A stretch of DNA of 64,000 nucleotides. It comes from Psychroserpens ponticola (lineage in GTDB: Bacteria; Bacteroidota; Bacteroidia; Flavobacteriales; Flavobacteriaceae). Where the stretch lies: positions 3,610,001 through 3,674,000 of the forward strand of contig NZ_CP116221.1 of assembly GCF_023556315.2 (NCBI RefSeq), given 5' to 3'. Both the position numbers and the translations under genes were made by a program. The notes below the pieces were generated by a model. It worked only from the letters and a program-made list of their open reading frames with translations. It ran no database searches and was not told the origin of the DNA. Shown here in pieces: positions 4,147 through 57,173 of the stretch; within the stretch, counting starts at the first letter, position 1; each line of letters begins with the position of its first letter.

Positions 4147-5112
4147 ATGTCTAAAGTATTAATCATTGGTGCTGGTGGTCAGATTGGTTCGGAGTTAACC
4201 TATAAACTACGTGAAATTCATGGTAGCAATAATATTGTTGCCAGTGATATTAACTGTTCAAATTTAGATATTGTCAATTCCGGTTGTTTTGAAATATTAG
4301 ATGCAAAAGACTACGATGCGATTAAAAATTGTGTTGAAAAACATACTATTGATACCATATACTTAATGGCTGCCATGCTAAGTGCAACAGGTGAAAAGCA
4401 CCCAATGATGGCATGGGATTTAAACATGAACTCTTTATTTCATGTTCTTAATTTGGCAAAAGAAGGTTTTATCAAAAAGGTGTTTTGGCCATCAAGCATC
4501 GCTGTTTTTGGACCTACCACACCTTCAATTAATACTCCTCAACATACCATCATGGAACCGACTACAGTTTATGGCATTACTAAACAAGTTGGAGAACGTT
4601 GGTGTGAATATTATCATAAACAATATGGTGTAGATGTTAGAAGTATAAGATATCCTGGAATTATAAGCTGGAAAACATTGCCAGGTGGAGGCACTACGGA
4701 TTATGCAGTAGAAATTTATCACAAAGCAATACTTGACAAAACTTATGAATGCTTTTTGTCTGAAGAGACTAAGCTTCCAATGATGTTTATGGACGATGCA
4801 ATTAATGCTACTATTAATATCATGCAAGCGCCTTCTGAAAACATAAAAATTAGATCATCATATAATTTAGCTGCTATTAGCTTTACGCCTAAAGAGATTT
4901 TTGAAAGTATTAGAGCTCAGATTCCAGATTTTTCAATGACTTACAATCCAGATTTTAGACAAGCTATAGCAGATAGTTGGCCAAAATCTATTGATGATAC
5001 GACAGCGAGAACCGATTGGAATTGGAAACACAAATACAATCTAGAATTAATGACTAAAGAAATGATCTCTCAGTTAGAAAAAAAATACGCGTCTTCAGAA
5101 AAAATGCACTAA
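4147..5112 (+). CDS. tdh: L-threonine 3-dehydrogenase, short-chain/epimerase type (NAD-dependent)
   Basis: A 321-residue extended short-chain dehydrogenase. The Rossmann nucleotide-binding motif GAGGQIG is at 8-14 and the catalytic YxxxK is YGITK at 142-146. The protein closely matches my memory of the Flavobacterium frigidimaris type of L-threonine dehydrogenase, including the FWPSSIAVFGPTTP and GGGTTDYAV segments. These enzymes oxidise L-threonine to 2-amino-3-ketobutyrate with NAD and resemble UDP-galactose epimerases rather than the zinc-dependent Tdh. The alternative would be a generic NAD-dependent epimerase, but the substrate-specific segments favour threonine dehydrogenase. The gene is transcribed alone from its own promoter; a hairpin follows before the next gene. 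Confidence 0.9.
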   Translation: MSKVLIIGAGGQIGSELTYKLREIHGSNNIVASDINCSNLDIVNSGCFEILDAKDYDAIKNCVEKHTIDTIYLMAAMLSATGEKHPMMAWDLNMNSLFHVLNLAKEGFIKKVFWPSSIAVFGPTTPSINTPQHTIMEPTTVYGITKQVGERWCEYYHKQYGVDVRSIRYPGIISWKTLPGGGTTDYAVEIYHKAILDKTYECFLSEETKLPMMFMDDAINATINIMQAPSENIKIRSSYNLAAISFTPKEIFESIRAQIPDFSMTYNPDFRQAIADSWPKSIDDTTARTDWNWKHKYNLELMTKEMISQLEKKYASSEKMH

Positions 5113-55637: not shown

Positions 55638-55663
55638 CCTGCAAGGTTTCCAAAACCTTGTAG
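55638..55663 (+). repeat. Left REP palindrome of the RAYT unit
   Basis: An 11-bp imperfect stem (ctgcaaggttt pairing with aaaccttgtag) around a 3-base loop. Its reverse complement matches the REP at 56202-56227 at 25 of 26 bases, so the two form inverted ends of a transposase unit. Confidence 0.88.
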
Positions 55664-55682
55664 ATCTTTTAAAAAGAAAAAC

Positions 55683-57173
55683 ATGAAGTTAGACAACTTA
55701 GAAAAAGATCATTATTATCACATTTACAATCGTGGAATTAATAGTGAAGTCATTTTTAAGAATGATGATAACATGTTGTATTTTCTAAACTTATCAGGTA
55801 AATACTTAAATGATAATGCTGATATTATTGCTTACTGCTTAATGAACAATCATTTTCATTTCATCATTAAAGTTACTAATGAGAAAAACATAACAAATTG
55901 CTTTTCTAATTTTTTTAATTCTTATGCTAAAGCTTATAACAGACAACAAGGAAGAACTGGAAGTTTATTTGAAAAGCATTTTAAACGAAAACGATTAGAT
56001 ACAGAAGATTATCTAAAAAATCTAATCTTATATATTCATAACAACCCTATCAATGCGATTGAAAATTATAAATTCTCATCTTATTTGCATTACTTGAATG
56101 GTACTAATCCTAATTCTTTTAATTTGGCAAAATCAGAAATCTTAAGAGTTTTTGATAGTATTGAAAATTTTGAGCATATGCATAAAAATTCAGATTCATA
56201 CCTACAAGGTTTTGAAAACCTTGCAGGAAAAGAAAAAAAATTAGAAGAAAAAATAACTTTTGATTCTGAAATCAAAGATAAGTTCTTCAAATACATACAC
56301 GAATTACAAGACACAATCTCGTCTAAATTGGAAGCGATTGATGGTAAAGCAAAATTTCAAGAAGACCTTTGGAAACGTCCTGAAGGTGGAGGCGGAAGAA
56401 CTCGCGTGATAGAAAACGGGAACGTCTTTGAAAAAGGTGGTGTCAATATCTCTGGTGTTCACGGAAAATTACCAGAAAGCATGCAAAACTACTTTGGTGT
56501 TGAAGATGCTAACTTTTTTGCTTGTGGTTTAAGTTTAGTATTACATCCTAAAAACCCAATGGTTCCAACAGTTCATGCGAATTGGCGCTATTTTGAAATG
56601 TATGACCAAGAAGGTAACATTGTTGATCAATGGTTTGGTGGTGGACAAGATTTAACGCCTTACTATTTGTTTGAAGACGATGCTAAACACTTTCATCAAA
56701 CATGTAAAACAGCATGTGATAAGCACGATCCTGAATTCTATAAAAAATATAAAGCGCGTTGCGACGAGTATTTTTACAACACACACAGAAATGAAGGTCG
56801 TGGTATTGGAGGTTTATTCTTCGATTATTGCAAAGCTTCAGATGATATGAGTATGCAGAATTGGTATGATTTTGTAACAGAAATTGGTGATAGTTTTCTT
56901 GATGCTTATGTTCCTATTGTTGAAAAACGAAAAAATATAGAATCTACAAAACCACAACGTGATTGGCAAGAAATTCGTCGTGGTCGTTATGTAGAATTTA
57001 ATCTAGTTCATGATAAAGGCACGCTTTTCGGATTAAAAACCAACGGAAGAATTGAAAGTATTTTGATGAGCCTACCACCACATGTACAATGGGTTTATGA
57101 CCATCATCCAGAAGCAGGAAGTGAGGAAGAAAAATTAATTAAAGTATTACAAAATCCTGTAAACTGGGTGTAA
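55683..57173 (+). CDS. hemF: RAYT transposase fused in frame to oxygen-dependent coproporphyrinogen III oxidase
   Basis: A 496-residue fusion. Residues 1-~180 are a complete REP-associated tyrosine transposase (Y1 family): HYYHIYNRGI opens it, the HUH motif is His57-Phe58-His59 in NNHFHF, GSLFEKHFKRKRL follows, and the catalytic Tyr117 is in ILYIHNNPIN. Residues 197-496 are full-length HemF, with GGGGRTRV, VHANWRYFEM and RRGRYVEFNLVHDKG; it converts coproporphyrinogen III to protoporphyrinogen IX with oxygen. Residues ~174-183 (YLQGFENLAGK) are encoded by the right REP. The expected HemF start (usually MKDKF) is here EIKDKF, with ATC at 56271 in place of ATG. No ATG, GTG or TTG lies between Met166 (56178) and HemF, so expression must use the fusion start or Met166. 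Confidence 0.93.
   Translation: MKLDNLEKDHYYHIYNRGINSEVIFKNDDNMLYFLNLSGKYLNDNADIIAYCLMNNHFHFIIKVTNEKNITNCFSNFFNSYAKAYNRQQGRTGSLFEKHFKRKRLDTEDYLKNLILYIHNNPINAIENYKFSSYLHYLNGTNPNSFNLAKSEILRVFDSIENFEHMHKNSDSYLQGFENLAGKEKKLEEKITFDSEIKDKFFKYIHELQDTISSKLEAIDGKAKFQEDLWKRPEGGGGRTRVIENGNVFEKGGVNISGVHGKLPESMQNYFGVEDANFFACGLSLVLHPKNPMVPTVHANWRYFEMYDQEGNIVDQWFGGGQDLTPYYLFEDDAKHFHQTCKTACDKHDPEFYKKYKARCDEYFYNTHRNEGRGIGGLFFDYCKASDDMSMQNWYDFVTEIGDSFLDAYVPIVEKRKNIESTKPQRDWQEIRRGRYVEFNLVHDKGTLFGLKTNGRIESILMSLPPHVQWVYDHHPEAGSEEEKLIKVLQNPVNWV
56202..56227 (+). repeat. Right REP palindrome, inside the fusion coding sequence
   Basis: CTACAAGGTTTT pairs with AAAACCTTGCAG save one A-C mismatch. It is the inverted partner of the REP at 55638-55663 and is translated as part of the fusion protein. 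Confidence 0.88.

Follow-up and report, generated by a model that had tools for sequence, protein, structure and literature searches.

A RAYT module in frame with hemF

A REP-flanked module of a REP-associated tyrosine transposase (RAYT), resident 5' of hemF, has probably, and often, captured the hemF start, and would thus be costly to lose. In Psychroserpens ponticola the two genes form a single open reading frame on the + strand at positions 55683–57173 of the window (the whole 64,000-nucleotide stretch of DNA that was analysed), 496 codons long, with an ATG start and zero internal stops. The product matches Pfam Y1_Tnp at residues 9–121 (25.3 bits against a cut-off of 23) and Pfam Coprogen_oxidas, over the full length of that domain, at residues 202–495 (about 442.5–445 bits). 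The first-pass annotation of this DNA had described a continuous frame joining a RAYT with intact catalytic residues to a full-length HemF, and both statements are borne out. The RAYT domain (TnpA_REP, Y1 HUH; codons 1–162, 55683..56168, + strand) bears the start codon of the frame and carries the HUH motif His57-Phe-His59 (55851..55859) and Tyr117 (56031..56033), which from its position in the alignment we take to be the catalytic tyrosine. All three residues are invariant in a 12-row alignment, and in the 55 distinct fusions described below His57 is kept in 54 and His59 and Tyr117 in every one. The HemF part, an oxygen-dependent coproporphyrinogen III oxidase domain with solved relatives 1tkl, 1txn, 2aex and others, occupies 56271..57173 (+ strand), stop codon included.

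In the AlphaFold model of the fusion the RAYT half is good (blocks of pLDDT 75–96) and the HemF half uneven (overall 71.2, pTM 0.51), so we make no claim about contacts between the domains. The best transposase match of the modelled RAYT half in Foldseek is 4er8 (chain A), the structure of a RAYT in complex with a REP hairpin, with an E value of 8.8e-6, ranking above IS608 and ISDra2; phmmer, run on PDB sequences with the RAYT half as query, returned nothing meaningful.

Two REPs (both on the + strand) accompany the RAYT. The left one, CCTGCAAGG...CCTTGTAG, lies directly 5' of the RAYT start at 55638..55664. The right one, CCTACAAGGTTTTGAAAACCTTGCAGG, at 56201..56227, lies in the joint and is translated as LQGFENLAG, as the first reading of the sequence had it. 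The linker joining the two enzymes spans 56169..56270 (+ strand), and its residues 172–194, with pLDDT below 50, are predicted to be disordered. It includes Met166 (56178–56180), the last in-frame start codon ahead of HemF. The native start position of hemF, codon 197 (56271..56273), which is also the right border of the module, reads ATC; the nearest in-frame ATG, GTG or TTG upstream of it is the ATG of codon 166, and the first one downstream is a TTG 19 codons inside HemF. The changed start codon and the lack of any alternative between codon 166 and HemF had both been noticed earlier, and both hold.

The P. ponticola genome, assembled as one contig of 4.03 Mb, contains one HemF and one Y1_Tnp match. 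The fusion lies in a haem cluster with the gene order hemE (URO-D), EI24 protein, GNAT acetyltransferase, RAYT–HemF, YchJ-like protein and hemB (ALAD). A pattern drawn from the REPs of the window has 14 matches at 10 places in this genome, two of which adjoin the RAYT, and the reversed pattern, used as a control, has none. The genome also encodes HemN (TIGR00538, 415.7 bits against a curated cut-off of 325). This rules out that HemF is its sole coproporphyrinogen oxidase. The first-pass annotation had called HemF apparently essential and had named a second hemF or a hemN that carries the function as a point of refutation; any dependence would at most concern aerobic haem synthesis.

Distribution in Flavobacteriaceae

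The hemF–RAYT module is a minority state in Flavobacteriaceae. Among 397 evenly drawn genomes of the family, 63 have a RAYT profile match at an E value of 1e-12 and 17, that of the window included, have a full open-frame RAYT–HemF fusion. In nine others an unfused RAYT lies 5' of hemF on the same strand, within about 250 bp in five and at 1.05–2.65 kb in four, and the hemF-linked RAYT reads through into hemF in 17 of 26 genomes of this even sample. These 17 fused and nine upstream RAYTs account for all 26 matches above 200 bits. Across 395 genomes of the whole class, RAYTs from outside the family reach at most 175 bits, as against more than 200 for every hemF-linked RAYT of the even sample, and, one frame of 379 aa aside, none of the open frames listed for them exceeds 272 aa. 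In a RAYT tree a branch with an SH-aLRT of 96 separates all 68 hemF-linked rows from 13 RAYTs found elsewhere, a part of those not linked to hemF; the tree (81 rows) was made by a quick method, is unrooted and leaves 35 of 78 inner branches open.

A wider collection was drawn from the best 80 of 578 relatives in a contig scan together with other searches, and consists of best-hit lists rather than a random sample. We designate its loci by L-numbers and genomes by G-numbers, G000 being the genome of the window. After removal of duplicates it holds 55 distinct in-frame fusions, spanning several genera, 72 lone hemF loci, many covered with a flank of 1.5 kb only, and 13 loci with an adjacent unfused RAYT, a number (and hence also the total of 85 unfused hemF) in which L029 and L180, the same place, are counted twice. 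No RAYT on the opposite strand was found at the loci of these three classes. Other Flavobacteriaceae with such fusions, for which the first-pass annotation had proposed a search, are thus represented by 54 distinct in-frame cases beside that of the window, and the fusion is not the one-off that it first appeared to be. These 54, coming from other records, exclude chance or an assembly error as its origin. We likewise assign practically no probability to an artefact of sequencing or to a fused pseudogene in decay: nothing in its support was found at the 55 loci, which come from many assemblies, have low dN/dS and keep their catalytic residues.

One genome in the collection, G017, has two HemF matches (L008 on C77, and another on C59); it is listed with 6% contamination.

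Structure of the joint

Loci with a RAYT next to hemF form a graded series. At one end the RAYT has its own stop followed by a REP-bearing spacer (L071, L072, L074, L163 and L164); in L073 its stop lies within the REP, in L145 it lies five nucleotides ahead of the hemF ATG, in L148 it overlaps the hemF start as ATGA, and the series ends in the full fusion. Among the 55 fusions the linker measures 29–77 residues (median 38) and in 49 carries one of three REP types (Q, S and R); the other six have decayed or different palindromes. The right-hand REP is translated in two frames, one giving LQGFENLAG or LSGFENLTG and the other RPARFEKPARS, which suggests that the joint arose more than once. By eye, a palindrome similar to the left REP precedes the RAYT in most fusions, with the contigs of L067 and L068 starting just upstream of the RAYT. 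Some loci also have a REP arm in the first 120 bp past hemF, which can place hemF itself between REPs; this applies to 18 of the 55 fusions and 3 of the 72 lone hemF loci, and to none of the 13 with an adjacent unfused RAYT.

Two further features were seen upstream of these genes. At many unfused loci (L007, L009, L015, L087, L193 and others) a gene ending in ...EKATYCNKSMV or similar appears by eye to stop directly 5' of hemF, and in L045 a 35-residue RAYT fragment (5001–5105) lies upstream of the fused RAYT.

Loss of the hemF start codon

The first-pass annotation had suggested that the hemF start region be compared among relatives, and the comparison sets the two classes of loci apart. Codon 197 is something other than ATG, GTG or TTG in 30 of the 55 fusions, compared with 6 of the 85 unfused hemF genes (Fisher p 8e-10, kinship ignored). 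The remaining fusions have ATG (23) or GTG (2) there, and a separate HemF product may be made in these 25. Winogradskyella sediminis DSM 28134 (L033) is one of the start-less cases, and W. thalassocola DSM 15363 (L048) one of those that retain the ATG. In the 30 start-less fusions the codon is ATC (15), ATA (5), ACC (3), GTC (2), TTT (2) and GTT, GTA and CTC (1 each), and in 28 of them the closest upstream start codon is at least 20 codons away, the exceptions being L127, with a GTG two codons upstream, and L076, with a TTG seven codons upstream. With the start codon gone from this position, HemF in the start-less fusions is most likely translated from the start of the RAYT.

Of the six unfused hemF genes with an altered codon, two (TTA and TAT) are preceded by an ATG at a distance of one to three codons, L083 (ATA) retains an apparent decayed linker, and L024 and L104 (both GTC) and L133 (ATA) have an open extension upstream. 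That of L024 (in G002) runs for about 108 open codons and has no RAYT match.

A neutral reading of the joint would be that an adjacent RAYT merely lost its stop and that HemF begins internally, at the ATG where this is kept and otherwise at ATC or ATA. Such read-through would fit the graded series from the spacer of L071 and L072 through the stop in the REP of L073 and the ATGA overlap of L148 to the full fusion, as well as the 23 fusions that retain the ATG, and the ATC or ATA found in 20 of the 30 start-less fusions might permit weak initiation. Against it, 10 of the 30 have ACC, GTC, GTT, GTA, TTT or CTC at codon 197, all unusual starts (L127 and L076, with their GTG and TTG two and seven codons upstream, are among these); unfused hemF genes hold a start at that position (ATG, TTG or GTG) in 79 of 85 cases; and HemF in pairs of start-less fusions is under strong selection. 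We therefore consider neutral read-through improbable and prefer capture of the hemF start by the RAYT.

Selection on the two halves

In 16 pairs of fused loci with a RAYT dS of 0.35–0.73, which overlap in membership, dN/dS is 0.11–0.28 for the RAYT and 0.04–0.07 for HemF. Among start-less fusions in particular, HemF dN/dS is 0.03 in L033/L034 and 0.06–0.07 among L060, L065 and L123. In the five closest RAYT pairs the RAYT value of 0.15–0.51 is based on too few changes to judge, and a sixth pair has no synonymous change. These ratios indicate purifying selection on the RAYT and HemF halves alike.

Selection on the RAYT would also be expected if the two halves were functionally coupled, with the RAYT half regulating or localising HemF, for example by binding the REP that its own gene or transcript contains and so providing haem-linked control. 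The placement of REPs ahead of the RAYT, within the joint and past hemF (the arm seen in 18 of 55 fusions as against 3 of 72 lone loci) would suit this idea. We nevertheless think it unlikely, since most relatives do without the fusion (17 of 397 genomes have it) and losses are known, since the downstream arm is missing from all 13 adjacent-unfused loci, and since the joint varies in frame, REP type and linker length (29–77 aa), unlike a tuned one.

Exchange and loss at the hemF site

The divergence of the two halves is discordant in both directions. Near-identical RAYTs sit on diverged hemF genes in L033/L034 (RAYT dS 0.03, HemF dS 0.88) and L040/L075 (0.06 and 1.14), and the reverse pattern is found in L043/L044 (HemF dS 0.21, RAYT dS 2.25), L053/L056 (0.19 and 0.89) and L039/L049 (0.47 and 1.40), all values above 1 being rough. 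A single ancient fusion inherited strictly vertically is rejected on this ground and because fused and unfused hemF genes interleave. The HemF tree, a quick one with 69 of 136 inner branches open, has 29 changes between the fused and unfused states, seven of them forced by well-supported branches.

Fourteen pairs that include a fusion were compared, and in 13 of them homology to hemF restarts no more than a few bases from codon 197; the exception, the window against L004, shares a longer stretch because L004 has a scar. The near-identical tract of L040/L075 runs from the last codons of the upstream gene to about 27 bp inside hemF, whose first codons are conserved anyway, and that of L033/L034 starts at a REP and ends at about codon 197.

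L055, which is fused, and L204, an empty site, differ by a clean 691 bp from the upstream TAG stop to the hemF ATG, with no target duplication. Their flanks are 96.5% identical over 1.9 kb on the left and 0.9 kb on the right, and further out 87% identical over 3.5 kb on the left and 93.5% over 2.0 kb on the right. Of the four S-type REPs in G089, the genome of L204, one lies at the same place in the genome of L055 (97.6%, 940 bp) and another in a stretch that is 77% alike over 818 bp, in a comparison covering seven of the nine REPs of the latter genome. The shared place suggests that a RAYT was once present in G089 and was then lost, and favours reading the 691-bp difference as loss of the module. 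Scars of REP or linker were found in L004, L005 and L083, the first two retaining one REP and the linker tail, in the old frame, ahead of a usable hemF ATG.

Taken together, the distances and alignments indicate that the module has been exchanged between species and lost at the hemF site. The first-pass annotation had spoken of a captive transposase that cannot be lost. The idea of captivity stands; the impossibility of loss does not, given the empty and scarred sites in relatives and the presence of HemN, and as most collected hemF loci (72 distinct) have no adjacent RAYT, captivity is at best partial.

The route by which the module reaches new genomes is compatible with more than one process. 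We see close to an even chance that ordinary homologous recombination in the region of hemF spreads it and that the RAYT plays no part in its own movement; this concerns the route only and is compatible with capture of the hemF start as the main explanation. Homologous recombination does act at this locus, since in fine alignments hemF is mosaic in L037/L107 and L037/L038, and the drop in flank identity further out from L055/L204 and the constant location of the module, as expected from allele replacement, are in keeping with it. Less easily reconciled with this route are the tracts of L033/L034 and L040/L075, which stop within about 30 bp of the hemF start and, on the other side, at a REP or where the upstream gene ends. 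The same holds for L055 and L204, between which the module is precisely what differs at the site. A stronger claim would be that hemF–RAYT is a homing, self-addicting element which inserts only at the hemF start, swaps in its own translation start and is kept because inexact loss silences aerobic haem synthesis; this we hold to be possible, if rather doubtful.

L037, L038 and L107 had themselves been candidates for RAYT transfer (RAYT dS 0–0.02, HemF dS 0.26–0.29) and were rejected as such, the upstream side being equally alike and hemF mosaic. To the left of the Q-type module of L033 lies, by eye, the apparent left end of an S-type element like that of L041, as if the hemF site had had successive occupants.

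REPs elsewhere in the genome

REPs of the three types were counted on the forward strand of 56 chosen genomes, with genomes labelled by our interpretation of their joints; nine with R-type, other or unclear joints (G118, G212, G250, G182, G029, G436, G442, G443 and G445) were left out of the comparisons of Q and S. The RAYT type at hemF goes together with the REPs dispersed in the genome. Q-type REPs number 1–26 in each of 14 Q genomes, as against 0–6 in 22 genomes without a hemF-linked RAYT (p 2e-6) and 0–10 in 11 S-type genomes (p 3e-4), and S-type REPs number 0–19 in the 11 S genomes, as against 0–4 in the 22 genomes (p 2e-6) and 0–3 in the Q genomes (p 4e-4), kinship being ignored in all four tests. 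The control, each REP pattern read backward, gave zero in 56 of 56 genomes each time.

This agreement has exceptions: the R-type genomes G442 and G443 have 15 and nine REPs of the Q type, and G445 lacks all three types. G428 and G197 have only two S-type REPs each, both adjoining their own RAYT, so a genome with few REPs of the three types left can still retain a fused RAYT. The top counts among genomes without a hemF-linked RAYT belong to G364, G019, G008 and G089, of which G019 and G008 have scars and the other two are near fused relatives. In L218 (G360:C1:87844-87925) two REPs stand 55 bp apart in mirror order, resembling a REPIN.

A model for capture of hemF

The explanation that we prefer may be set out as follows. 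In a minority of Flavobacteriaceae a REP-flanked RAYT module occupies the position immediately 5' of the hemF start codon, where it may have arrived either by its own action (site-specific transposition) or by homologous recombination, and in most of these the RAYT frame runs via the right-hand REP into hemF. A ribosome starting at the RAYT ATG would then make a two-domain protein consisting of an HUH transposase of REPs, a floppy linker and HemF, and in start-less lineages HemF would be made only in this form. The HemF half would perform aerobic haem synthesis and the RAYT half would presumably still act on single-stranded REPs. Once the native start had decayed, imprecise loss of the RAYT would be loss of HemF, which HemN would cover only in part. 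Takeover of the hemF start would in this way make loss of the RAYT costly and prolong its stay, a form of addiction.

Relation to known systems

The module has the common features of RAYT (TnpA_REP) systems with their REPs, or REPtrons: a Y1 HUH domain, flanking REPs, a single copy and REPs dispersed in the genome. It differs from known RAYTs in that its frame continues into a complete metabolic enzyme, in that its clade was seen at one chromosomal site only, and in its exchange between species. By motif alone, the nearest described RAYT group is subclass 2.4 of Quentin et al. (2018; PMC6006769), a study that reports REP insertions within tnpAREP genes of this subclass and states that unexpectedly long proteins were set aside as gene fusions or annotation errors. 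Recognition of REPs is treated in PMC8266576.

Transposases of the IS200/IS605 family, which excise precisely, share the Y1 HUH fold, and presence or absence of the hemF module without target duplication resembles such excision. They differ in that multiple copies would be expected of them, whereas here there is one Y1_Tnp match, and the model is nearer to the RAYT 4er8 than to IS608 or ISDra2. HemF proper has the same complete domain and many solved relatives; here, by contrast, it has an N-terminal transposase part and no start codon of its own.

Bertels and Rainey (2011; PMC3116915) describe RAYTs as unable to mobilise themselves and as transferred laterally between distant organisms but rarely at the species level, and they ask what saves the RAYT–REPIN association from extinction, suggesting an addiction system or a function for the cell. 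PMC8049555 describes RAYTs as single-copy and vertically inherited and sees no sign that REPINs are transferred to a significant extent at the species level. The hemF module differs from the RAYTs of Bertels and Rainey in being exchanged and tied to hemF, and it raises the same question of persistence. That question is stated as an open one in PMC3116915, and here RAYTs of one group are physically linked to a metabolic gene that is conserved, with related fused, scarred and empty genomes that make the idea of addiction directly testable. If the fusion product is made, a transposase would serve as the leader of a housekeeping enzyme. The first-pass annotation knew of no described RAYT–HemF fusion, and our searches of the open-access literature likewise found none.

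A frame of another kind was met in L213 (G268:C16, 2106–5192), where a distant RAYT (profile E 2.7e-19), which has no Pfam Y1_Tnp match at an E value of 0.001, and a PIF1–HRDC–HTH_40 helicase share one frame of 1029 aa. The peptide HTVTQSHGVS occurs in it twice, inside the RAYT part and at the joint, and is perhaps a translated repeat.
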